A DNA stretch of 22,737 nucleotides from a virus. Below, piece by piece: positions 11,788 through 22,737 of the stretch (position 1 is the stretch's first letter; each line of letters begins with the position of its first letter). The notes beneath the pieces were generated by a model. That model was not told the origin of the DNA, ran no database searches, and saw nothing but the letters and a program-made list of their open reading frames with translations. The stretch covers positions 1 through 22,737 of the IMG/VR virus record IMGVR_UViG_3300025674_000432; one strand, given 5' to 3'. The position numbers and the translations under genes are program-made.

Positions 11788-11977
11788 GTTCGAAGCGAAC
11801 CTCCTTACCAACGGAAAGGTCGAGTTGCTCTGTGAATCTGTGAGGCCCGAAGAGTTCGAGGGCGTTATCAACAACGGCTTGCCGGAGTATGACGGGGCAC
11901 ACTCCATAGCAAGCCTGTTGAGATACTTGAAGTCTTGGTCAGATGAGGCGATAGATAAGTCGGCCAGATATATCTAG
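11762..11977 (+). CDS. Hypothetical protein, 71 aa, last gene of the early operon
   Basis: This soluble protein of mixed character has two likely strands (LFKFEANLL, KVELLCESV) and helices toward the end (IASLLRYLKSWSDEAIDKS). I do not recognise it. ATG 11762 is preferred; a GTG at 11750 is in frame but would extend further into the previous gene, and neither has a strong ribosome site, so coupling with the upstream gene is likely. Its stop codon TAG lies in CTAG, shared with the stop of the convergent gene on the other strand, so there is no room for a terminator between the two operons. Confidence 0.65.
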   Translation: MSNKASLFKFEANLLTNGKVELLCESVRPEEFEGVINNGLPEYDGAHSIASLLRYLKSWSDEAIDKSARYI

Positions 11978-12255
11978 CTTTTGCCCTTGCCGTCTGCAGC
12001 AAAGTCAGGGACCATCTTACCGGCTTTGTTCTTGACCATAGTCATTCCGCCGCCTGCCATCATTTTCGGACCCTGCATCATCGTGTTCTGCATCTGATTC
12101 TGCTGGCCCTGTGTGGCTGTCATCATGCCCCCCGCTTGAGCCTTCTTGCGGGTTTTCTTTTTGGTGGTGGCCATGCCGCCGTACATCATAGGCTTACGCT
12201 TTGCAGCCCCGCCGTACATCATGCCCTTGCGCTGGCCGTTATTGTACATTTTCAT
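11974..12255 (-). CDS. Met/Gly/Lys-rich repeat protein, 93 aa
   Basis: This low-complexity basic protein is built from KGMMYGGAA / KPMMYGGMA repeats, a Lys-rich patch (TTKKKTRKKAQ), then Gln/Met/Gly-rich sequence (QQNQMQNTMMQ, MMAGGGM) and a short ordered-looking end (VKNKAGKMVPDF). Similar 'MMYGGM' proteins recur at the end of virion operons in marine phages as I recall them, with no known role. A good AAAAGGAAC site precedes the ATG, which lies in the last codons of the 1546-aa gene (17-nt overlap). High positive charge suggests DNA or membrane contact within the particle, as inference. Coding is supported by position and the repeat, although the reverse strand is also open here. Confidence 0.75.
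   Translation of the reverse strand: MKMYNNGQRKGMMYGGAAKRKPMMYGGMATTKKKTRKKAQAGGMMTATQGQQNQMQNTMMQGPKMMAGGGMTMVKNKAGKMVPDFAADGKGKS
12176..12222 (-). repeat. Two direct repeats coding for the MMYGG motif
   Basis: The 14-nt sequence ccgccgtacatcat occurs at 12176-12189 and again at 12209-12222, exactly 33 nt apart, so each copy encodes the same MMYGG unit in frame. It points to internal duplication of an 11-residue unit in the small basic protein. Confidence 0.8.
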
Positions 12256-15200
12256 CGTCTTGTTCCTTTTTAGGGTTGTAATATGCTGCTTCTACTGCTT
12301 CTTGCGGCACGTAGTCTGGTGCCCGTTCAGTCTTCTTCAAAAGTTCCCTGACAGTAACGGATGTCACTATCGTAGAGAATGTGCGGACATCTGCTTCCGT
12401 CAAGAGTTCTGGGTCTTTCATAAGAAGCTGCATTATTCTTGCCCCCTCCTTACTGCCCGCTGCTATCTCAAATGCAGATACCTTCTGCTCTTCCAGAATA
12501 CGGAAAGCAAACTCCGCCCCAACGTAGGTGGGACTGACCATGCCACGTGCCACGTTAAATGCACGACTGATCATCTCATTGGGAGATATTCCCCGTATGC
12601 CCTTCTGTGTAAATCCTGCCAGAGATGTGCCTGATGAAATCACCATCATATCGGCCATATCCTGCATATATTGAATATGATCGTCACTCAATACATTTCT
12701 TAGGATTTTTAAAGTGGATGGGTCTTTCAAGTCGCTTGCCATCTGTGCAGCATTAGTTGCAGTTTCTATCTGCTTAACGCTTCCGTCAAAGGATTTAAAT
12801 GTTGCCTCAGAACTAGGAGACACTTTTGCTCGTGCAAGTAAGCCGTTAGTCACCATGTAGGCAAAACTCTGGTTAAACACTTCTTCTGCTTCTTCTGGAC
12901 TTACGTTCCTTTCAGCCGCAGAGTACCCCTCCATGAACTTTTGCTTCAGAGTATCGAACTGTCCCTCATTGTAGTTCAACACATACTTTTCATAGAATTG
13001 AGCAGGATCGGGAAGCCTAGATGCCTCTTCAAGTTTCTGTGCACCCCTTTTATCTCTGGCAATTTCAAGTTTGCCAGCCTCTGCTACGTCCGAAGTTTCG
13101 TCGTTTACAAACTGTACAAACTTTTCGTACTTTTTACGAACGTCGGCATCCAGTTCGACCAGCCTCACAATATCGTTTTCTTCGGATATTAGCCGTTCCA
13201 TGTTGAACCACTGTCTAGGTTCAAGTTCGCCGCTGGCTGTTTTTACGTATACTGTGAGTTCGCCCTCAAGCTGTCTCATGTTTTCTATACGAGAGAAGTC
13301 GTACGCTCCCCCTACGGGACCGGACCCTGCACTGCTCGTGGCACCCAAACTTCCCAGCTTCAGTTTGTCTAGGGTGTTGGTTCGAACCTGATCTCCCCAC
13401 GCATTGTATATAGCGTTTTGAAGCATGCCGCCAATGTTGTTAAAGTTCTCTTCACTGTTTCCGTCGATAGTCATATCGTAGACAAAGAAGTTTCTTCCGC
13501 CCACCTCTGTCACACTGTCTGCCCAAAACTTTCCAAACTCGTTCATCTGGGCACCAAATGCAAGAATGTCAGAGTTATTGCCCGTAGATATAGCCATGCC
13601 TGCAGCCTGTGCCATAGGATCGTGCCAAGTATCTGGGTATTCGTCTGAAGCAAATCGACGCTGATAACCTTGTGGTGTCGGCTCTTCAACTTCGGTCCTT
13701 TGCATAGCCGAAGAAATTTTGTTACCAAGCGTACCGGGACTCTGTATGGGATCGAATACTACACGCTTATATTCTTTTCTTGCCGCCCTCATAGGTTCCT
13801 GTATTTCAGGAAACTGTGCAAAAGAAGCTTCTACAGCATCCGCAGCATCAGAGTAGGGCGTACCCTTACTGGCGTCGTCTCCAGCAAATGATCGTGCCTT
13901 TGCGTTGAAGTGTCGTTTTATTTCTTCCGCTTCGAAGGGAGTGGCAGGAAAAGCCATAAACCTCTCACCATCCTCAGACTGTCTCGCGGATAGTGTAGCA
14001 GCTATCTCTGCGAACGATGCGTCTTCAGAAATAAAATTTTCGTTGGGCACTTCTTTACCATCAGGAAGGCGAGGATCATCATACACTACTTTTGTAGGAG
14101 TCCTAGATATCAGGAGGAGTTGTTCGAAGTCGGCCTGATCATTGTCCGTAAGATTGCGGAGAGATCGTTCTGCTGCATCGTTGAGTGCTGCAAATGCAAA
14201 CTTGCCCGTACGACTACGCAAAAACTCAGACTGGGGGCTGAAGAACGCACTGATTGCACCCTCCCCAGAAATTTCCAACTTGTTGAGCAGGTCATCGAAC
14301 AGGGGCTGCATGTCTATAGACCTGTTACCCATCGCATCGTTTGCGTTTTTATACGCAGCCTGTCCCAGCGCACGTACCTTCTGATCCCGCACACTAGCCA
14401 TCAACTCTGCCATTCTGCCGGAAGCTAGTTTATGGTCTGCAGTTCCGCGCAACGCATTAACACCCTCCATGCGTTTTGCAAGGGCAGTGTCGAGTTCAAC
14501 CATAGAATTTACAAGGATGGTTCTCTGTTGTTCTATATCATTCATGGCTCCCGGCGTGAGGCTTACCTCCACGTCAACCAGCTTTTGAAGCAAGTCTCCG
14601 CTTATTTCAGAGGATGGGTCTTCAATCACGGATGTTTTGTACTCACGAAGGTACTTTAAGTATTCTGTCTTTCTTAGGTTCATAAGCTTCAGTTGACCAT
14701 CTGCTGCCGCTTCGAAGCCATTGACCATCATCTCTATGTAGTCCCTGTCGGCTACATCGATCATATCGCCGGACTCCTTCATCATACGACGAAGATTGTC
14801 CATGCCCAGAGAGGCCATGCGAAGACTGTCCTCTGCCTCTAGCTGTGCATTAACTGCTCCCTGCAGACCATCAAGATTAGTCTTTAGTTTCTTGATGTTT
14901 GTTTTTTCTAGGACTTGTAGGGGAGCCAAGCCACTTGCATGTCCAAAGGAAAGAGTGAAGGCATTCAAAGCCTCAATTCTGGGTTCTCCTTCAGGGAAAG
15001 AATTGACGATACGGTTACGAATTTCGCCGTACTTTTGTAGGGATGTAAATACTTTTTCTCTAGCGGCGGGTGTAAGGTTTGCCATCAACTTGTTAGCCTG
15101 TTGAAAAGAAACAACCTCTTCAGGAGTTAGTTGCCTGCCAAGAGCATCACTTACGTCATCAAATGTCCTGTCTACAAAAAAGGAACGAGGGGCGAGATGT

Positions 15201-16879
15201 ATGTCCTCTATAAATCTCCCGATGTTAGATACGGGCTGATCAAGAGTTGAAACCCTTCCAAGAAACTTAGCCGATCCCTTTACACCACTAAGAGCCGGAC
15301 GACCACCAAACGCTGTAACCAAAGCCCCGATCATCCCCCCTGTATCGCCCTCCATTTCCTGAAAGAAGCTAGGTAGGATGTTGTAACCTGCTGTTTGACC
15401 TGCAGTGACCAAGACCTCATCGGATATGAGTTCTGCCATAAACGGGTTGCCTGTGTACATAGTGCCCCGCCTAAGATCGTCCATCCTAGTCTGTAAGTTT
15501 TGTCTGCGGGTTATGGCATCCTTGAGGGTCATTTCCAGACCCTTTTGAGTGCCATCAGCCACAATTACAATGCTATCATCGCCGCCCCTTATAGCCTGCT
15601 GTGTGTGTATTACATCATCATATTTTGCTATTTCAGAGTCTAGCTTGTTTAATTGACGTGCATGTTCAGCATTTTCAGTGGCATCTCCAATCGGTCCCCG
15701 GTAGCCAACTGTCCGTGAGAAGTACGATCCTATGTTCGCTTTAAATTTGCGAACTGCTAGTGCGTAACGGTTCTTAGAGTCTTTAATCCGTAAAGCGCGT
15801 ATGGCATCTGTTGGATTCATCTTTTTTATGTCGGGATTTTTTTCTATGGAATTTTCAATTCTTTTAATTTGTGCTGCACCCCTAGCCAGATGAAACTTGC
15901 CGAATGCTGTGGACACTCCAAGATTGGGCAGGAACAAGGCTGCGAACTGTTCTTGTGCAGGAAGTTCTGAAAACCCGAAAGTGAGGAGTGCATCTGCCGC
16001 CTCATCAGACACAAGAGGCAGCTTCAGACGCTCCCCTGTCTCTTCATTTATCAGGGGTTCGTATCTTTGTAGGTACGCTTCTCTGCCGTACTGTGCAATG
16101 TATCGCTCTTTGAGTTCTTCGTTTAGTCCCGCTGCGTAAGTAGGCTCGAAGTTAAGTCGGTTAGAAATAAACCGGCGGTGATCAGCTAGGTCTGCAACGG
16201 CGTCTGATGAGTAGTTCTGCCATGCTTCCGCAAAAGTCCTGTCTGTTGCTATTGAATCTGCCGCTGCACGAAGGGCGTACTCACTGTACACGTACGCAGT
16301 CTTAGGTAGCTTGAATGCTCCCTTTGCCAAGTTTTCTGCGTCCCTAGCTACCTGCGGAAAGAATCCAGTCCTGTAGTAGTCTGCCAGAAGTTCTTGGACA
16401 TCAGGAGTAACAAGACCTCCCAAGCGTTCCTGTAGGTTTATTTGAGATGCAGCTATGTCTTCGGCTTGCTCCTTTTCTGAAGGGCCGAAGCCGCCTATTA
16501 CGGGCACCTTCACAGCAGGGTCTGTGGAGAGGGTCGGCGGAATGTCCGCTACGAGTTTGCCCGCATCATCACGCTTCGTAAACATGAATTGAGGTTCAGA
16601 GGCTTTCTTGTCAACGCCCCTGTTGTACTCAATAACTTGGCGGTTTATAGCAGAGATAGCCTCGACATCGTTCTGTGCTGCCTTTGCTACAAGAGACGGA
16701 CGAATCGGCGTGTCGCCAAGAGAAGTGATTTCTCCTGACAGAACCTTGTTCACATCAACGCGAGATGGCGGGGTGATGGAAGCCTTTGCTGCCTCTTCGA
16801 CAGCAGGGAATACTCCCGGACTCATAATTCCAGCCGTCGCACCTACATCCGCTAGGTCTGCTCTTGTTTGTTCTGCCAT
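12239..16879 (-). CDS. Giant virion protein, 1546 aa (candidate internal/ejection protein)
   Basis: This is one of the two largest genes in the window. It is almost wholly soluble and alpha-helical, with Ala/Glu/Arg-rich stretches (for example around 380-480 and 680-860) and no signal peptide, clear membrane segment or recognisable lysozyme or transglycosylase motif. In T7-like phages two adjacent giant proteins, gp15 (747 aa) and gp16 (1318 aa), leave the capsid to form the DNA-ejection tunnel. Size and order here (898 aa then 1546 aa) fit that pair, but no sequence homology can be claimed by eye. The start codon follows the upstream stop by 9 nt with AGGA overlapping that stop. A tape-measure-like or scaffolding role is the main alternative. 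Confidence 0.8.
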   Translation of the reverse strand: MAEQTRADLADVGATAGIMSPGVFPAVEEAAKASITPPSRVDVNKVLSGEITSLGDTPIRPSLVAKAAQNDVEAISAINRQVIEYNRGVDKKASEPQFMFTKRDDAGKLVADIPPTLSTDPAVKVPVIGGFGPSEKEQAEDIAASQINLQERLGGLVTPDVQELLADYYRTGFFPQVARDAENLAKGAFKLPKTAYVYSEYALRAAADSIATDRTFAEAWQNYSSDAVADLADHRRFISNRLNFEPTYAAGLNEELKERYIAQYGREAYLQRYEPLINEETGERLKLPLVSDEAADALLTFGFSELPAQEQFAALFLPNLGVSTAFGKFHLARGAAQIKRIENSIEKNPDIKKMNPTDAIRALRIKDSKNRYALAVRKFKANIGSYFSRTVGYRGPIGDATENAEHARQLNKLDSEIAKYDDVIHTQQAIRGGDDSIVIVADGTQKGLEMTLKDAITRRQNLQTRMDDLRRGTMYTGNPFMAELISDEVLVTAGQTAGYNILPSFFQEMEGDTGGMIGALVTAFGGRPALSGVKGSAKFLGRVSTLDQPVSNIGRFIEDIHLAPRSFFVDRTFDDVSDALGRQLTPEEVVSFQQANKLMANLTPAAREKVFTSLQKYGEIRNRIVNSFPEGEPRIEALNAFTLSFGHASGLAPLQVLEKTNIKKLKTNLDGLQGAVNAQLEAEDSLRMASLGMDNLRRMMKESGDMIDVADRDYIEMMVNGFEAAADGQLKLMNLRKTEYLKYLREYKTSVIEDPSSEISGDLLQKLVDVEVSLTPGAMNDIEQQRTILVNSMVELDTALAKRMEGVNALRGTADHKLASGRMAELMASVRDQKVRALGQAAYKNANDAMGNRSIDMQPLFDDLLNKLEISGEGAISAFFSPQSEFLRSRTGKFAFAALNDAAERSLRNLTDNDQADFEQLLLISRTPTKVVYDDPRLPDGKEVPNENFISEDASFAEIAATLSARQSEDGERFMAFPATPFEAEEIKRHFNAKARSFAGDDASKGTPYSDAADAVEASFAQFPEIQEPMRAARKEYKRVVFDPIQSPGTLGNKISSAMQRTEVEEPTPQGYQRRFASDEYPDTWHDPMAQAAGMAISTGNNSDILAFGAQMNEFGKFWADSVTEVGGRNFFVYDMTIDGNSEENFNNIGGMLQNAIYNAWGDQVRTNTLDKLKLGSLGATSSAGSGPVGGAYDFSRIENMRQLEGELTVYVKTASGELEPRQWFNMERLISEENDIVRLVELDADVRKKYEKFVQFVNDETSDVAEAGKLEIARDKRGAQKLEEASRLPDPAQFYEKYVLNYNEGQFDTLKQKFMEGYSAAERNVSPEEAEEVFNQSFAYMVTNGLLARAKVSPSSEATFKSFDGSVKQIETATNAAQMASDLKDPSTLKILRNVLSDDHIQYMQDMADMMVISSGTSLAGFTQKGIRGISPNEMISRAFNVARGMVSPTYVGAEFAFRILEEQKVSAFEIAAGSKEGARIMQLLMKDPELLTEADVRTFSTIVTSVTVRELLKKTERAPDYVPQEAVEAAYYNPKKEQDDENVQ

Positions 16880-16888
16880 AGGTGTTTC

Positions 16889-19585
16889 CTACATTACCGC
16901 TGGTTTTACTTGTTGATTAGCATCTACGGGAATCAGTATTCCGCCCCTTACAACATACTTGCCCTGCATGGGGATTCCAGTTTCCTTGTCTATGATCGTA
17001 ATCCCTGTTTCGTTGTTTCCTGATCCCGGACGAATGTCATAGTCATCTAGGCTCAACCCCTGCTGGGCAGGTACTTCAGGTGCAGCAGCAGCGACAGGGG
17101 TTTCATCGCCCTGATCGCCCGGAACTTGGGAAACATCCACGTCAGCGCGAGGAGGTACGGGCTTGGATTTTCTAGGGGCTGTGGTCGCCGCATTTGGATC
17201 GAATCGTCTGCTTGTGCTTCTGACCTCATCAAGTCGTGCAATCTCTTCGGCACTACGTAGATCGGAAGCTGCAGGCGGAAGAGGTTCATTACCTCCCGGA
17301 CCAGTTGGGGCACGGTATGGAGTCGGTGGAGAGTCTATTCTTTCAGATAACATGTTCTGCCGCAGTGTTGATTCATAGTTTTGTGTTTCAGGAGCAGCCG
17401 TGCTACTTGCTGAAGCGGCTTGCCCTGCAACAACCGTGCCGGTGTAAGCGGTATATGTAGTTTCGCCATCTTCACCCGCAGTTGCCGTATACGCTATAGG
17501 CTTATTGTTTTCATTCATCTGCGCCTGATTGTTGTCGTTATAGGCGTAGAATATCTGCTTATTATCTTCTGTTACTAGACCAGCAGCAGATTCAAAGGCA
17601 TTGAAAGCGAGTGTCTGACTCTTAGATTTATCTACTGAGCCGACATCAGCACGTCTCTGAAGATGATCAACAGCTACGGCTGCATCTATGACAGCCTTGT
17701 TCTGTCTGGTGAGTTTTCCTGTTCCCTCGCCGTAGTTGACAAGTATGTTAAGCTTGCTGTAGCGGGATTCAAACTCACGCTTTACAATTTGTATTTTTGA
17801 TAGGACTTGATCTACAGTATCGAAGTCGCTGCCCAGACGATCAAGGGCCTGTTGGACATCTTGGTTAGACAGTCGTCCTGACGGGTCAGCAGCGCGGGCC
17901 ATCTTAAAGGCGAGTCCAAGACGTAGAGAAGCAAGTTCTGCGTATGTTATGCCATCGCTTCGTGGTTCGTTTTTATCACGCTCTCGCGCTTGATCCAGTA
18001 TATTCGTTGTCAGGCTAGATAGGTAGCCCTCCGTAAGGAATTTTTCATCACTGTCCGTGGGCTGATAACTGTCTGACCTTACAGTTATGCTTGTGGTATC
18101 AATTCCTGCTTCTTGGAAGAATTTTTCACGACCACTTGAGTTTGAAAGATCAGCCATAAAAGATTGTGCGAAAGCGACAGGAACCCGGAATACAGCCTGC
18201 TTAAACTGTTGGTACGCTCCTATCTGATTGCCTTGCGCCTTGAGTTCAGATGTTTTTGTAGACAGCAAGTCCAGATCATCCATAACCTGCTTGTTTGTGT
18301 CTCGTTCAGTCCGCATCTCCCCGAAAGATTTAGTATCATACACATTAATTCCATAATGCAATTTCATCACGTGGTTTTGCCGCGATACTTCTGCCGGAAT
18401 TACCGTATATATGCTGTCAGGGTTACCCGCCATGTCATCGTCAGAACGAGCAGTTATCATGTAGGGGTACAGAGCAAAAACCTTGCTTTCGAAAGTTGAC
18501 CCTGTGGACTCTGTTGCTGTGTTGAGTTTCGTGTACAAAGCTTTTGGCGAACTAGACCCGGTGGCCGGAAGAGAATACAAAAACGTGTTCTCTGCTGACG
18601 GAGACAGGTTTTCAATGGCTGGTATGTATGAGGGTCCACCCTCTCTCCCCAACATCACAGACGCTTGAAACGCTCCCACCAGAGTAGCATCGTCCATTCC
18701 GGGCATCTGTATGGGTTTCGTAAAGTCTACAAATACGTCATTTGAATCTGCGGACTCAAAAATATTCCCCAAGTTTGCGATAGAAAACGCTTGTCCTGCT
18801 GCAATGTCTGCGTTATCAGACAACATAAACGGGCCGTAGTCAACGCCCCCATCAGGATTCGATATAGCCCATACAGCCCCAATCTTGTTCGAATCTATAT
18901 TTTGGTTGTCAACCATCTCTTGAGCGGCAATGGCTGCATCAGACGGACCCTCTGGGGAGTCTGCGGGACGAAGCATTTTAAAGTCTTTGACCCAAGCGAA
19001 CTGATCCGCATTCCAATTCAAGGGTATAAATGGCTCTCCTTCAGCACGTTTACGGGCATCCCTGTTCTCCTCAATGAGTGCAAATTTTGCACCATTGACT
19101 GCGGCGTTCATTTGAGTCCATGCGTTAGGATCATTCTTGAGATACTCTCTGTAAGTATCGTTGCCCATAATTCTTTCGAATTCGCCAAACATAGCCTTTG
19201 CTGTACCACCAGTGTAGCTAGTCGGACGGGGTATATACACAGGAATTCTTGTGTTACCGGAGCCGTAGTAAAACTCTGCGCCATCTACATCATCTAGGGT
19301 GGAGGACAGAGTAGCCATGTCGAGGTCTAGGCCGTCAGAGGCTGTGCCAAATATGTCGATACCCTCACGATCACTGAGTTGTTTTCTGGCATCCTTAATC
19401 ATTGCTCGTGCAGCGTTGATACCCGCTGCTGACCTATCAGAGGCAGGCTTCATGGTGTACTCCATCACCAGAGCATCCATAGCATCCACCTTCTCCCTTT
19501 CAGAGAGACGCTTTTGCTGTTCTGTCATTATGTTTTGCGTAAAGCCCTTTACAAGGCCCATAGCAAATCCTGCACCTATACCCAT
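16889..19585 (-). CDS. Large virion protein, 898 aa (candidate internal/ejection protein)
   Basis: A short Gly/Met/Phe-rich N-terminus (MGIGAGFAMGLVKGFTQNIM) could insert in a membrane or pack against the inner core. It is followed by a helical segment and a long mixed middle. Residues about 690-860 are Pro/Ala/Thr/Asp-rich and probably disordered (SPPTPYRAPTGPGG, AAAAPEVPAQQG), ending in a small ordered tail (TIIDKETGIPMQGKYVVRGG). The flexible linker with a compact end is unusual and could tie the protein to a partner. It is adjacent to the 1546-aa gene, and the pairing resembles T7 gp15/gp16, as inference. AAGGGAAG lies before the start; the gap to the upstream gene is one base. Confidence 0.78.
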   Translation of the reverse strand: MGIGAGFAMGLVKGFTQNIMTEQQKRLSEREKVDAMDALVMEYTMKPASDRSAAGINAARAMIKDARKQLSDREGIDIFGTASDGLDLDMATLSSTLDDVDGAEFYYGSGNTRIPVYIPRPTSYTGGTAKAMFGEFERIMGNDTYREYLKNDPNAWTQMNAAVNGAKFALIEENRDARKRAEGEPFIPLNWNADQFAWVKDFKMLRPADSPEGPSDAAIAAQEMVDNQNIDSNKIGAVWAISNPDGGVDYGPFMLSDNADIAAGQAFSIANLGNIFESADSNDVFVDFTKPIQMPGMDDATLVGAFQASVMLGREGGPSYIPAIENLSPSAENTFLYSLPATGSSSPKALYTKLNTATESTGSTFESKVFALYPYMITARSDDDMAGNPDSIYTVIPAEVSRQNHVMKLHYGINVYDTKSFGEMRTERDTNKQVMDDLDLLSTKTSELKAQGNQIGAYQQFKQAVFRVPVAFAQSFMADLSNSSGREKFFQEAGIDTTSITVRSDSYQPTDSDEKFLTEGYLSSLTTNILDQARERDKNEPRSDGITYAELASLRLGLAFKMARAADPSGRLSNQDVQQALDRLGSDFDTVDQVLSKIQIVKREFESRYSKLNILVNYGEGTGKLTRQNKAVIDAAVAVDHLQRRADVGSVDKSKSQTLAFNAFESAAGLVTEDNKQIFYAYNDNNQAQMNENNKPIAYTATAGEDGETTYTAYTGTVVAGQAASASSTAAPETQNYESTLRQNMLSERIDSPPTPYRAPTGPGGNEPLPPAASDLRSAEEIARLDEVRSTSRRFDPNAATTAPRKSKPVPPRADVDVSQVPGDQGDETPVAAAAPEVPAQQGLSLDDYDIRPGSGNNETGITIIDKETGIPMQGKYVVRGGILIPVDANQQVKPAVM

Positions 19586-19586
19586 A

Positions 19587-20138
19587 CTATTCGCTTCCCT
19601 TGACGTTTAAGAAGTTTTCTTCTTTGCGTTCTTCTGGCATGTAGCCCTGCCGGATACCCTCATTGATCTGTTCCCTGACGAACGAGAATAGAGCAGGGTT
19701 GTTTTGCTTCATCATTGCAAAGAATGTACGATCATCCATTTCACCCTTGTTCAGTTCGTCAGCATTCTCGAAGAACCTGTAGGGTACGCCCTCTTCTTCA
19801 GCCATAGCAGCTATGTACATGGCAAGTGGCCCCTTGATCAGAAGTCCCACATCCGGGTTGAACTTGCCGTCCTGAAAACTTTGAAACAAGTAACCCTCGA
19901 CGAGAGACTCGACTGAAGCCCCTACCATCAGAAGCTTCATCATTTCCTTCTTGATTTTAGGAACATCTAGGGAACGAGCCGCTTCATTCATCGCCTGTTC
20001 AGGATCGACAATCTGTGGGGGCTTACCCCACGGCCACCTCTGATTGTCAGAAATCATTCCATAGCCCGGAGGTGCAGATGAAAATTCATCCTTTGCTTCT
20101 ATGCTGCCCACTGGGGCTGCATTCATGTCCATCTTCAT
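19587..20138 (-). CDS. Marine-phage virion-type protein, 183 aa
   Basis: The N-terminal segment (SAPPGYGMISDNQRWPWGKPP) resembles a motif I recall at the start of structural proteins of marine cyanophages and pelagiphages (PPG-x-DN-x-W-x-WG-x-PP). A helical body follows, with MVGASVESLVEGYLF and KFNPDVGLLIKGPLAMYIA, and a charged tail. No enzymatic motif is visible. It sits one base after the preceding stop (TGA-C-ATG) in the virion operon. Function is unknown; a role in the head core or the connector is plausible from context alone. Confidence 0.7.
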   Translation of the reverse strand: MKMDMNAAPVGSIEAKDEFSSAPPGYGMISDNQRWPWGKPPQIVDPEQAMNEAARSLDVPKIKKEMMKLLMVGASVESLVEGYLFQSFQDGKFNPDVGLLIKGPLAMYIAAMAEEEGVPYRFFENADELNKGEMDDRTFFAMMKQNNPALFSFVREQINEGIRQGYMPEERKEENFLNVKGSE

Positions 20139-20139
20139 G

Positions 20140-20556
20140 TCACTCTACCTTAGATGATTCTAGTGAAAGTGTGGGCGCAGATCGACCTATAGTCGGACTT
20201 ACTACTGCGTACTCTCTAAGTAGGTCTTTTACCTGTGAATTATTTGAGTATTGGAGCCTGTCCATTACTCGCTGCATCATCGGACTCTGGAATCCGTTGA
20301 ACGGCTGTGCAGCACTTAGCGTGGGTCCAGCGGCAGGATTGCCACGAGTAAGTTCCTGCACGGACCTAGCCCTAGCGTCTATTTGGCGGTATGAGAAGGG
20401 CTGCTCTGTTTCGTCTGCCCCAGTTAATTTTACAAACGCAGAGGCTGCATCCCCCAAGAAGCTGTCTTCTTTTTTGCCCTTGCCCTTTGACGGTGTTCCT
20501 CCCGTCGTTCCTGCAAGAAGAGGCAACCCGATAGCCAGTATAGTTCCCAAATCCAT
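20140..20556 (-). CDS. Hypothetical virion-operon protein, 138 aa
   Basis: This starts with a hydrophobic stretch (LGTILAIGLPLLAG) that could be a membrane or packing segment, then a Lys/Gly-rich linker (TPSKGKGKKED) and a helical, Arg-rich body (RQIDARARSVQEL, MMQRVMDRLQYSN). It has no recognised family. The start overlaps the preceding stop as TAATG and the end is followed after one base by the next start, so it is translated in tight coupling with its neighbours. An internal head protein or ejection component is plausible from position. Confidence 0.65.
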   Translation of the reverse strand: MDLGTILAIGLPLLAGTTGGTPSKGKGKKEDSFLGDAASAFVKLTGADETEQPFSYRQIDARARSVQELTRGNPAAGPTLSAAQPFNGFQSPMMQRVMDRLQYSNNSQVKDLLREYAVVSPTIGRSAPTLSLESSKVE

Positions 20557-21929
20557 TAGGTAGTACCTCCGTCGCTTCTATTCGCTGCCCAGAGAGCGAT
20601 CCAGTTGCCTACACCCATAGCTAGATTGTCCTTCTGCTCTTGACTGTACAATTCTTTGGTATTTGCAAACTCCATAGCCATGATGCCAACCTCATGCTGA
20701 CGCTGCAATTCAGACTCACTCTTTTGGAAGTTCCATGCTGCATTATCACGGTACATCTGCCACAGATTATTTAGGGCGTTCTGAGATACATTCAACTGAT
20801 TCTGGACGTTTATTCGGTTTGTTTCGTTCTGTATCGCTGTCGCAGCAGTGTTTGTTTGTCTGCGCCACTGAACATTCGACTGATCTATGGCAAACTGCAT
20901 GTTGGCGTTGAACTTTGCCCTAGCATCTCGTAGTGATGCGTTGTACTGCGTCATGGCGTTGGTTTCACCTGCGTTGAACTGCTCCATAGCAGCCACGCGG
21001 TTAGCGTTTGCAGCCTCTACTTGTGATCCCAGTTCGGCAAAAAACTCTTCGACCTGTATCTCGTTTTTTGCGTTGAACTGCTGTCGGGCGTTGTCCTCTG
21101 CAGCATCCTTGAACATAGCCTGTGTTAGGGCGTTGTATGACAGGGTGTTGCCCTGCTGCCGTGCGTCGAGGTTCTTTGTCTCAGTTGACAAAAGTATCTG
21201 CGCGTTGGTGACAGCCCCCTGAAGACGGGCCGACAGATTTGCCTTGTCCATACCCGCAAACACAGCGGCGTTAGCTAGGGCTGTCTGCTGTTGATTGTTC
21301 AGATTTTGTAACTGTATCGTGGCGTACTTGTTTGCATCCTGTGCAGCGATAACAACGCCCGACTCCATGACAGCCTGTGTCATAGCTGCTGCAGCCATAG
21401 ACGAGGCACCCAAGCCACGTGCCTGCATAACACCAGCAACCTTGCGTACGGCAGGTGCGGCCCATGCTGGCATAGGCTTGCCCTCTTCGATGCTGCCAAG
21501 CAACTCACTAAGCTGGTATTGGACAGTGGCGCGTTGGTCGAGTTCCTGTGTAGCAGCTACGGCCTGTGATCCAGCAGACACAGTGCCCTCAACCTGCGAG
21601 ATATCAACCTGCGGACGACGTGCGTCCTCAATCTGTGCCGCTGTCATGCCCGTGATATCGGGAGCGATTTTTGTCGTAGAGGCTACCTGCCCAAGAGAAG
21701 GACCAGATACTGTAGGTGTGGCTACAGTCAAGCCAGTTATATCCGCTGTTGATGCGGTTACTGTGTCAGGCTGGTCGATAAGAGTACCCGTGGTTTTTTG
21801 AAGTTCGTCATCGCTGACAGTGGGAACTACGGCTGTTACTTGGGGAGTCCCCCCAGCCTCTCCGGCTGCAAGCGTACCAACTTCATCCATCAAGTCCTTG
21901 TCGGTAGATATCTTATTTACGTCAGCCAT
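20556..21929 (-). CDS. Repeat-rich alpha-helical virion protein, 457 aa
   Basis: Residues 1 to about 130 are Thr/Val/Ala-rich and probably extended. A conserved-looking helical segment follows (VMQARGLGASSMAAAAMTQAVM), a pattern I recall in virion proteins of marine phages. Residues about 230-410 are rich in Gln, Asn and Ala and built on an 11-residue register (QFNAGETNAMT, QYNASLRDARA, KFNANMQFAID, QSNVQWRRQTN), which suits a right-handed coiled coil or long helical rod. There are no enzyme motifs. By size, composition and order before two giant proteins it could be the counterpart of T7 gp14 or a rod in the ejection channel; this is inference. Confidence 0.78.
   Translation of the reverse strand: MADVNKISTDKDLMDEVGTLAAGEAGGTPQVTAVVPTVSDDELQKTTGTLIDQPDTVTASTADITGLTVATPTVSGPSLGQVASTTKIAPDITGMTAAQIEDARRPQVDISQVEGTVSAGSQAVAATQELDQRATVQYQLSELLGSIEEGKPMPAWAAPAVRKVAGVMQARGLGASSMAAAAMTQAVMESGVVIAAQDANKYATIQLQNLNNQQQTALANAAVFAGMDKANLSARLQGAVTNAQILLSTETKNLDARQQGNTLSYNALTQAMFKDAAEDNARQQFNAKNEIQVEEFFAELGSQVEAANANRVAAMEQFNAGETNAMTQYNASLRDARAKFNANMQFAIDQSNVQWRRQTNTAATAIQNETNRINVQNQLNVSQNALNNLWQMYRDNAAWNFQKSESELQRQHEVGIMAMEFANTKELYSQEQKDNLAMGVGNWIALWAANRSDGGTT
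20872..21102 (-). repeat. 33-nt (11-residue) internal repeat array in the 457-aa virion gene
   Basis: The core gcgttgaact (or close variants) recurs on a strict 33-nt register at 20905, 20938, 20971, 21004 (gcgtttgca), 21037 (degenerate) and 21070, with a further degenerate copy near 20872. On the coding strand each copy gives a [QK][FY]NA unit, so the protein contains hendecad repeats that diverge toward both ends. Confidence 0.75.
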
Positions 21930-22321: not shown

Positions 22322-22737
22322 CTATAACTCCGCACTAATATCAAGCACACCATTGTGAAGGTACTGAACATCGTTGGCATTTCGACTTGTTGCACTAGCC
22401 ATAAAAAAGTTCATTGTCGTAAAGTCACTAAATGTTGGTGTGCCGGTATAACCTGAACCGCTGCTAAATGCAGTGCTTATAGAAACACTGGGAGCCGCCC
22501 TCATTACTACAGGTATGTTATACTGTGTGAGAGGCGTACCCCCATCGTGATGCCATCTACCAGCCAAATGGTATGAAAACTCTTCAGTCCGAATAAAGTA
22601 CCTCTGACACCTAATCAACTCATCGCCAAACGACCGATGCTCAAACGGCGTGGCCTGTTCGCCAACTTCCATCTGCACTCCGGTGATGTACCATTCGTTA
22701 CCAACCGTGTCGGCAAGATTTACCTGACTGGGGTGTA
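22322..22737 (-). CDS. Tail fibre / receptor-binding protein, C-terminal part (cut by window edge)
   Basis: The frame is open from the right edge and ends at 22322; the in-frame Met at 22678 is internal. The first visible part (LADTVGNEWYITGVQMEVG, then ATPFEHRSFGDELIRCQRYF) is the very common end of a jelly-roll carbohydrate-binding module in phage fibres and tail proteins. A Ser/Thr/Gly-rich strand-forming tail follows (SVSISTAFSSGSGYTGTPTF and SATSRNANDVQYLHNG). It likely contacts the host surface. The N-terminal attachment domain lies outside the window. Confidence 0.85.
   Translation of the reverse strand, partial: HPSQVNLADTVGNEWYITGVQMEVGEQATPFEHRSFGDELIRCQRYFIRTEEFSYHLAGRWHHDGGTPLTQYNIPVVMRAAPSVSISTAFSSGSGYTGTPTFSDFTTMNFFMASATSRNANDVQYLHNGVLDISAEL

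Follow-up and report, generated by a model that had tools for sequence, protein, structure and literature searches.

The 457-residue protein analysed here contains a rod of 11-residue repeats (hendecads) whose length, across 356 members of its family, changes only by whole hendecads. It is encoded by an HMO-2011-type phage, in a virus record of 22,737 bases that we call the window (Table 1). From 367 collected loci we extracted 366 proteins, that of the window included, and measured in each the distance between two profile anchors that flank the array and correspond to N209 and N352 of the window protein. The distance was measurable in 356 of the 366 proteins, and it departs from the window value of 143 residues by a multiple of 11 in all 356 and by a multiple of 22 in 343. 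Twelve length classes are represented, from −22 to +506 residues relative to the window (number of proteins in parentheses): −22 (2), −11 (11), 0 (166), +11 (2), +22 (2), +66 (108), +154 (33), +176 (8), +198 (1), +264 (6), +286 (16), and +506 (1). Between 121 and 649 residues, or 11 to 59 hendecads, thus separate the anchors, and complete members of the family are 443–1445 aa long. An outward pair of anchors (A195 and L389) returned multiples of 11 in 357 of 357 proteins, the one gained being that of phage CRP-207, at +55; eight of the nine remaining proteins are cut by contig ends, and the other (L192) is complete and lacks an anchor. As a control, the N-terminal and C-terminal regions of the same proteins come in 159 and 49 distinct lengths, respectively, covering all residues modulo 11. 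If the 11 non-zero classes were independent, all would be multiples of 11 by chance with a probability of about 11 to the power −11. In 190 pairwise alignments, whose pairs are non-independent, lengths divisible by 11 account for 38 of the 49 gaps that fall inside the array and for 43 of 1182 outside it; since the net distance is always a multiple of 11, the other 11 gaps inside the array probably reflect split alignments. A comparison of repeat number in relatives had been suggested by the original prediction, and the number not only varies but always does so by whole hendecads, which is a stronger result than had been claimed. Because length changes only in whole hendecads across relatives, the phase of the helix is strictly conserved while its length is free.

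In the window protein the repeat is visible in DNA and protein alike. The core GCGTTGAACT occurs at positions 20905, 20971, and 21070 and a variant, GCGTTGTACT, at 20938, all in a common 33-nt register and one codon frame, so the strict register that was first described stands. Units of the form [QK][FY]NA begin at residues 284 (QFNA), 317 (QFNA), 328 (QYNA), and 339 (KFNA). The degenerate hendecads EFFA (295) and AANA (306) lie between them and QSNV (350) follows them; the 11-residue register proposed for this motif is strict, but the motif itself is absent from the degenerate units. Likewise, the interval to which the array was originally assigned holds the best preserved hendecads, but the array is longer, reaching about residues 196–209 on its N-terminal side and occupying about residues 196–360 in all.

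Table 1. Features of the window, all coordinates being those of the 22,737-base record
Feature	Position	Strand	Basis
457-aa hendecad-rod protein, first gene of putative ejection block	20556..21929	-	ORF; tblastn-confirmed relatives
Best preserved hendecads, [QK][FY]NA, aa 276-353	20872..21102	-	self-similarity, codon frame
Array N209 to N352, 143 residues = 13 hendecads	20874..21305	-	anchor distances
Predicted helix aa 178-262, N-terminal part of rod	21144..21398	-	AlphaFold2, mean pLDDT 61.9
Predicted joint aa 263-272 between helices, pLDDT <50	21114..21143	-	AlphaFold2
Predicted helix aa 273-451, C-terminal part of rod	20577..21113	-	AlphaFold2
Conserved motif region aa 154-199 ahead of array	21333..21470	-	alignment, 66 sequences
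N-terminal region aa 1-134 (net charge -12), little helix predicted, length highly variable in relatives	21528..21929	-	
Weakly hydrophobic C-terminal segment aa 434-452	20574..20630	-	19-residue hydropathy 0.35
138-aa protein, second gene of block	20140..20556	-	
183-aa protein, third gene of block	19587..20138	-	295 matching ORFs in 367 loci, E<=1e-3
898-aa protein, fourth gene of block	16889..19585	-	size as T7 gp15-class
1546-aa protein, fifth gene of block	12239..16879	-	size as T7 gp16-class
Tail fibre gene, 3' part, open at window edge	22322..22735	-	phrog_4492 tail fiber protein, E 5.4e-23

BLOSUM62 self-similarity over residues 196–432 peaks at lags 22, 11, and 33 (z 5.6, 5.0, and 3.7, respectively), to be set against a shuffle maximum over 40 lags with a 95th percentile of 3.15 and a 99.9th percentile of 4.06, of which lag 33 clears the lower only. 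Taken alone, residues 281–360 give z 6.6 at lag 11 and residues 196–280 give z 5.3 at lag 22; residues 361–432 yield no clear signal at lag 11 (z 0.6). The three top lags of the DNA against codon shuffles are 66, 33, and 99 nt (z 3.2, 3.0, and 2.8), and the array is absent from the output of Tandem Repeats Finder. The periodicity recurs in all 24 homologues examined (z 3.4–9.8 at lag 11 and 3.0–12.5 at lag 22). The same kind of statistic recovered the known hendecads of phiX174 H (z11 = 6.4) and gave z7 = 4.0 and z11 = 0.0 for the needle segment of P22 gp26. One control failed, in that the heptad region of phiX174 H gave no lag-7 signal (z7 −1.6); for this reason the lack of a lag-7 signal in residues 196–432 of the window protein (z −1.0) is, by itself, weak evidence.

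The periodic residues fall inside predicted helices, in keeping with the 11-residue helical repeat that had been proposed. AlphaFold2, run with 66 sequences, predicts two long helices with one break between them and an N-terminus that is mostly non-helical; since the mean pLDDT indicates modest confidence, we take only the secondary structure from this model. Residues 230–410, a region in which a globular fold would have spoken against a rod, have none in the prediction. Just after the predicted joint, D275, A277, N280, and A281 are at least 90% conserved, and P154, W156, A157, G172, and A195 are invariant in the 66 sequences. In 42 arrays thinned at 70% identity, Ala, Gln, and Asn make up 17%, 15%, and 14% of residues (45% together), and cysteine and proline each round to 0.000. 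Position 3 of the hendecad is Asn in 68%, position 4 is Ala or Leu, position 9 is often Gln, and odd and even hendecads are unlike, which produces a 22-residue super-repeat. Averaged over the family, hydropathy has a second harmonic (13.8) larger than the first (6.7), as expected of a two-faced helix; this argument is weak in single sequences and clear only on the family average, and we do not rely on it.

A physical account of the length rule can be suggested. A hendecad would complete three helical turns over about 16.5 Å, so that stripes of side chains would run straight along the helix. Copies of the protein could pack laterally through these stripes into a straight α-helical tube or strut with a high content of Asn and Gln, comparable to the phiX174 pilot tube. 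Gain or loss of a whole unit would leave the packing undisturbed, while any other in-frame insertion or deletion would twist the stripes out of register. If whole units alone keep the packing, selection would fix the phase and length would drift by lineage.

Length changes are found at several depths of divergence. Two family members (L314 and L328) share 91.4% DNA identity over 1344 aligned bases and 93% identity in protein; L328 lacks exactly 33 nt of the array relative to L314, and outside the array each lacks one codon. In a second pair (L217 and L215, 76%) there is a single gap of 110 residues in the array, and the N-terminal gaps are 1, 3, 5, 12, and 51 residues long; in a third (L183 and L184, 63%) the arrays differ by 66. 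A tree built from the flanks only (111 rows after thinning at 85% identity, with long branches) calls for 17 or more switches between length classes, which group by clade, compared with a mean of 59.5 after shuffling. Rod length follows phage lineage. A length dictated by some host dimension finds no support, and we reject it, as phages of one strain, Rhodobacteraceae FZCC0040, have unequal rods (CRP-3, CRP-212, and CRP-235 at 0, CRP-207 at +55). Nor is genome size a guide among the named phages examined: those of about 53–55 kb have rods at 0, +55, +66, +154, and +176, and those of 63–68 kb range from −11 to +22.

These length data bear on two other explanations. The first holds that the 11-residue steps are mere slippage between 33-nt DNA repeats and have no structural meaning, and the longest member of the family (L240) lends it some colour, since blocks of about 110 residues repeat there in phase (judged by eye) and look like in-phase duplications. 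In the window, however, DNA identity at a lag of 33 nt is 33%, which leaves little for slippage to act on; the phase holds between proteins only about 25–35% identical to that of the window, and other in-frame insertions and deletions are frequent just outside the array. We regard slippage as very improbable. The second makes the rod a strut resembling a tape measure, a ruler that would govern how long a tail or nozzle part becomes in the course of assembly, as 11-residue repeats may do in the tape measure proteins of some siphophages. Tape measure proteins with a variable number of 11-residue repeats are known (PMC3271669), and rod length here likewise changes in units, but a ruler sits poorly with phages that we take to be short-tailed and that carry an SU10-type adaptor, with an anchor distance that spans 121 to 649 residues, and with a length that fails to track genome size among the named phages examined. 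It seems to us an improbable reading.

The family is carried by a broad set of phages. Relatives of the window protein were found in 27 phage records, among them Puniceispirillum phage HMO-2011, pelagiphages HTVC033P, HTVC103P, HTVC104P, and HTVC115P, eleven Roseobacter phages (CRP), Vibrio phage CHOED, Aeromonas phage MQM1, and phages of Rhizobium and Sinorhizobium; a first scan of viral contigs gave 188 tblastn-confirmed stretches, of which the best 80 were kept, and plasmids gave no match to the window protein. HMO-2011-type phages are widespread in the ocean, and HMO-2011 itself is, we assume, a short-tailed phage. Related roseophages are abundant according to the title of one report (PMC6918029). 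In 17 of 18 named phages the homologue is annotated as a hypothetical protein; that of MW202701.1 (L087), a record titled Podoviridae sp. ctYwJ313, is named "huntingtin," probably a misannotation prompted by its Gln-rich helices. The window protein has no match in PHROGs, Pfam, or NCBIfam, and 66 relatives have scattered Pfam and PHROGs family matches only, with no tape measure family among them. Against PDB chains, sequence and profile searches gave nothing at E ≤ 1 and Foldseek a single meaningless match (E 8.8). Foldseek against a viral library gave two matches at E ≤ 0.001, which at 22–27% identity we presume to belong to the same family.

The setting of the gene suggests a function. Read leftwards from the rod gene, the window encodes proteins of 457, 138, 183, 898, and 1546 aa, and this order, with varying sizes, is common to HTVC033P, MQM1, Slicky01, RHph_I3_11, CHOED, and phiM6; HMO-2011 has it too, except that the second gene is not annotated. 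In HTVC115P, HTVC103P, CRP-207, and CRP-2, additional genes or genes of other sizes interrupt the order downstream. Genes for ejection proteins are described as typically clustered, a small protein being followed by two large ones (PMC8954989). In phage SU10, gp20–24 are reported to be present in virions and gone after genome release, and are termed ejection proteins (PMC9509320); they are consecutive, with lengths of 260, 350, 322, 551, and 1473 aa, and gp22 is annotated "putative DNA injection protein." Pfam SU10_adaptor was matched by all three candidate adaptors scanned (HMO-2011, MQM1, and RHph_I3_11). From gene order we infer that the rod protein is a component of the virion; the papers listed in our literature search showed no virion mass spectrometry for HMO-2011-type phages. 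Gene placement, the C-terminal caps discussed below, and the analogy with phiX174 lead us to propose that this HMO-2011-type podovirus uses the 457-aa protein for DNA ejection, as a pilot protein whose helices form a straight tube or strut, a reading to which we give an even chance. The rod protein would be packed together with the four proteins encoded after it, would be set free on attachment, and might then line or brace a DNA conduit across the cell envelope.

The resemblance to known ejection genes is one of placement. Single-sequence HMM searches found no convincing homology between the window protein or its neighbours and proteins of T7, P22, SU10, 7-11, H6/1, and AH02. With two anchor profiles, P22 gp7 and T7 gp14 scored below the non-family background; with a whole-protein profile T7 gp14 appeared at E 2.3 and P22 gp7 was unlisted. 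The highest score in a set of 26 proteins went to P22 gp16 with the 1546-aa profile (E 0.0074, 4.7 bits), a weak match in the expected slot. The lag-11 signal is missing in SU10 gp20–23, P22 gp7, and T7 gp14 (z11 at most 1.3) and is 2.8 in SU10 gp24. Against the PDB, the 183-aa protein gave no match, and the 898-aa (E 0.01 and 0.57) and 1546-aa (E 0.75 and 0.84) proteins gave two weak matches each, to proteins with unrelated names. A fold search with the 898-aa model returned nothing at E ≤ 0.001, a phiM1 ejectosome chain ranking 13th (E 2.0), and the matches from VIA-align were of a common helical-bundle kind (best Z 8.8); these results speak neither for nor against a relation to T7 gp15. Within the 1546-aa family, Pfam LPD38 (large polyvalent protein associated domain; E 1.3e-23) is matched by one of the 21 members that were scanned, and two families that PHROGs labels "virion structural protein" have one matching member each. 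Right after the 1546-aa gene, on the same strand (11974–12255, minus), is a 93-aa protein rich in Met, Gly, and Lys, with the near-repeats GMMYGG and PMMYGG and 36 matching ORFs in the collected loci. Separately, gp17 of Pseudoalteromonas phage H6/1 (L370:3137-4213), an annotated ejection protein with an S74 cap, has 11-residue periodicity (z 4.0, 4.1, and 4.3 at lags 11, 22, and 33); it has no detectable homology to the window family, and a scan of viral contigs found no relatives of it.

The gene block also bears on the idea that the rod belongs to a permanent helical tail tube that is not ejected. Phage DEV provides the model: its gp75 (321 aa) forms a dodecameric tube of about 330 Å that has been likened to an inverted portal barrel (PMC10925440) and is close in size to the rod. 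The position of the rod gene, however, resembles that of ejection genes, and the N-terminal region of its product is long, variable, and predicted to be mostly non-helical. A permanent tube is, in our estimation, quite unlikely.

The C-terminal ends of the family are diverse. The segment that is weakly hydrophobic in the window protein has a median hydropathy of 1.31 in the +66 class, which holds HMO-2011; over all 356 relatives the value exceeds 1.0 in 106 and 1.6 in 9, and some end in a hydrophobic stretch with many glycines. The rod protein of HMO-2011 and of close contigs ends in an extra domain, CWVAREVYG..W..FR.W (L081:14700-14900), which in the phage collection was found, at E ≤ 1e-5, in the two HMO-2011 records only. 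Other members end in an S74-type chaperone domain: Pfam identifies it in one contig protein (L229), a corresponding segment is common to CRP-738, CRP-235, CRP-3, and CRP-212, and the ends of two more (L221 and L230) resemble it by eye. The same segment ends annotated DNA injection or ejection proteins of phages 7-11 and H6/1, and in PVA1 it is matched in an unannotated frame just upstream of an annotated DNA injection gene. In the collection it is more often found on tail fibres, which account for 19 rows among the 38 records matched (17 named long tail fibre, mainly from Vibrio phages that are almost identical to one another, and 2 named distal tail fibre, from Thermus).

Such caps raise the possibility of a trimeric coiled coil on the exterior of the virion, a fibre or tail needle with the hendecad as its repeat, tipped in some relatives by S74 as a trimerising chaperone. 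The tail fibre annotations among matches to the CRP-738 segment favour this reading, as do the tail fibre genes that adjoin the rod gene and the near-100-nm lengths of the longest rods, which would fit a fibre. Most relatives scanned, on the other hand, have no cap (Pfam S74 in 1 of 66, a set outside which the CRP phages fall), the Asn plus Gln content is like that of the phiX174 H tube and unlike that of the P22 needle, the helix is two-faced on the family average though unclearly so in single sequences, and the rod gene heads a block of giant proteins. Compared with the P22 gp26 needle itself, the window rod is missing the lag-7 signal and the gp26 HMM score is at background. We think a fibre or needle unlikely. 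The ejection reading, for its part, has to accommodate a C-terminal segment that in the window protein is barely hydrophobic, S74 caps that are commoner on tail fibres, and a block order that is not universal.

A further difficulty is posed by the longest protein (L240:2516-4195), which has 649 residues between its anchors and 775 residues without a proline. As a single straight helix these would measure 116 nm, more than the width of a podovirus capsid, so the protein would need either to fold up within the virion or to lie beyond it. In its boldest form, the ejection reading would give these short-tailed phages a helical conduit for DNA that is modular, adjustable in length, and put together only when infection begins, an enlarged version of the phiX174 pilot tube with 11 to 59 hendecads between anchors, rich in Asn and Gln and often made of paired hendecads (22 residues); we offer it tentatively and consider it somewhat doubtful. 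Were it correct, a conduit of up to about 100 nm would amount to a long tail kept inside the head, and it would be one that evolves by whole helical quanta.

However the rod is used, the length rule in 356 proteins reveals a physical constraint, that of straight stripes of side chains on a helix, in a protein that has gone unannotated, and it points to a likely ejection block. The family also offers a natural series of rod lengths with which to ask which factors do, or do not, determine how long a DNA conduit is. In the literature we searched, mostly as listings and with subscription journals thinly covered, we found no description of the HMO-2011-type hendecad array.

Several known systems share parts of this design. 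SU10 (Kuravirus) gp20–24, five consecutive late genes of which the last is giant, resemble the window block in number and order, and the adaptor family is shared by relatives of the window phage; unlike the window protein, gp20–23 lack 11-residue periodicity, and there is no convincing sequence similarity between the two sets. P22 gp7 and T7 gp14 are smaller proteins encoded ahead of two large ones, an arrangement that the window may share, although two short genes intervene there, and the C-terminus of P22 gp7 is glycine-rich and hydrophobic (hydropathy 1.31), as in the HMO-2011 class; they differ in being 181–240 aa long, in having no HMM match, and in having no lag-11 signal. The siphophage tape measure proteins of Belcaid et al. 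(2011) share with the window family a variable number of 11-residue helical units, marked there by Trp or Phe (PMC3271669) and here by Asn, Gln, and Ala, but the window phage is presumably short-tailed, and its rod would not necessarily set a tail length. The direct homologue in HMO-2011, phage1322_25 (ADW08438.1, a hypothetical protein), stands in a similar gene order and has six more hendecads and the extra C-terminal domain. The closest functional analogy is perhaps phiX174 H, which forms a decameric DNA-translocating tube whose lining is chiefly of amide and guanidinium groups on side chains (PMC7354561). It too is a helical rod with hendecads, with 26% Asn plus Gln in residues 151–271, the window rod having 27% and the P22 needle segment 12%; there is no sequence match, and the window phage is a double-stranded DNA tailed phage. 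The H protein has three hendecads, a transition, and eleven heptads (PMC7354561), whereas the rods described here have 11 to 59 hendecads between the anchors; its role is in DNA delivery, and a corresponding role is what we suspect for the window protein.
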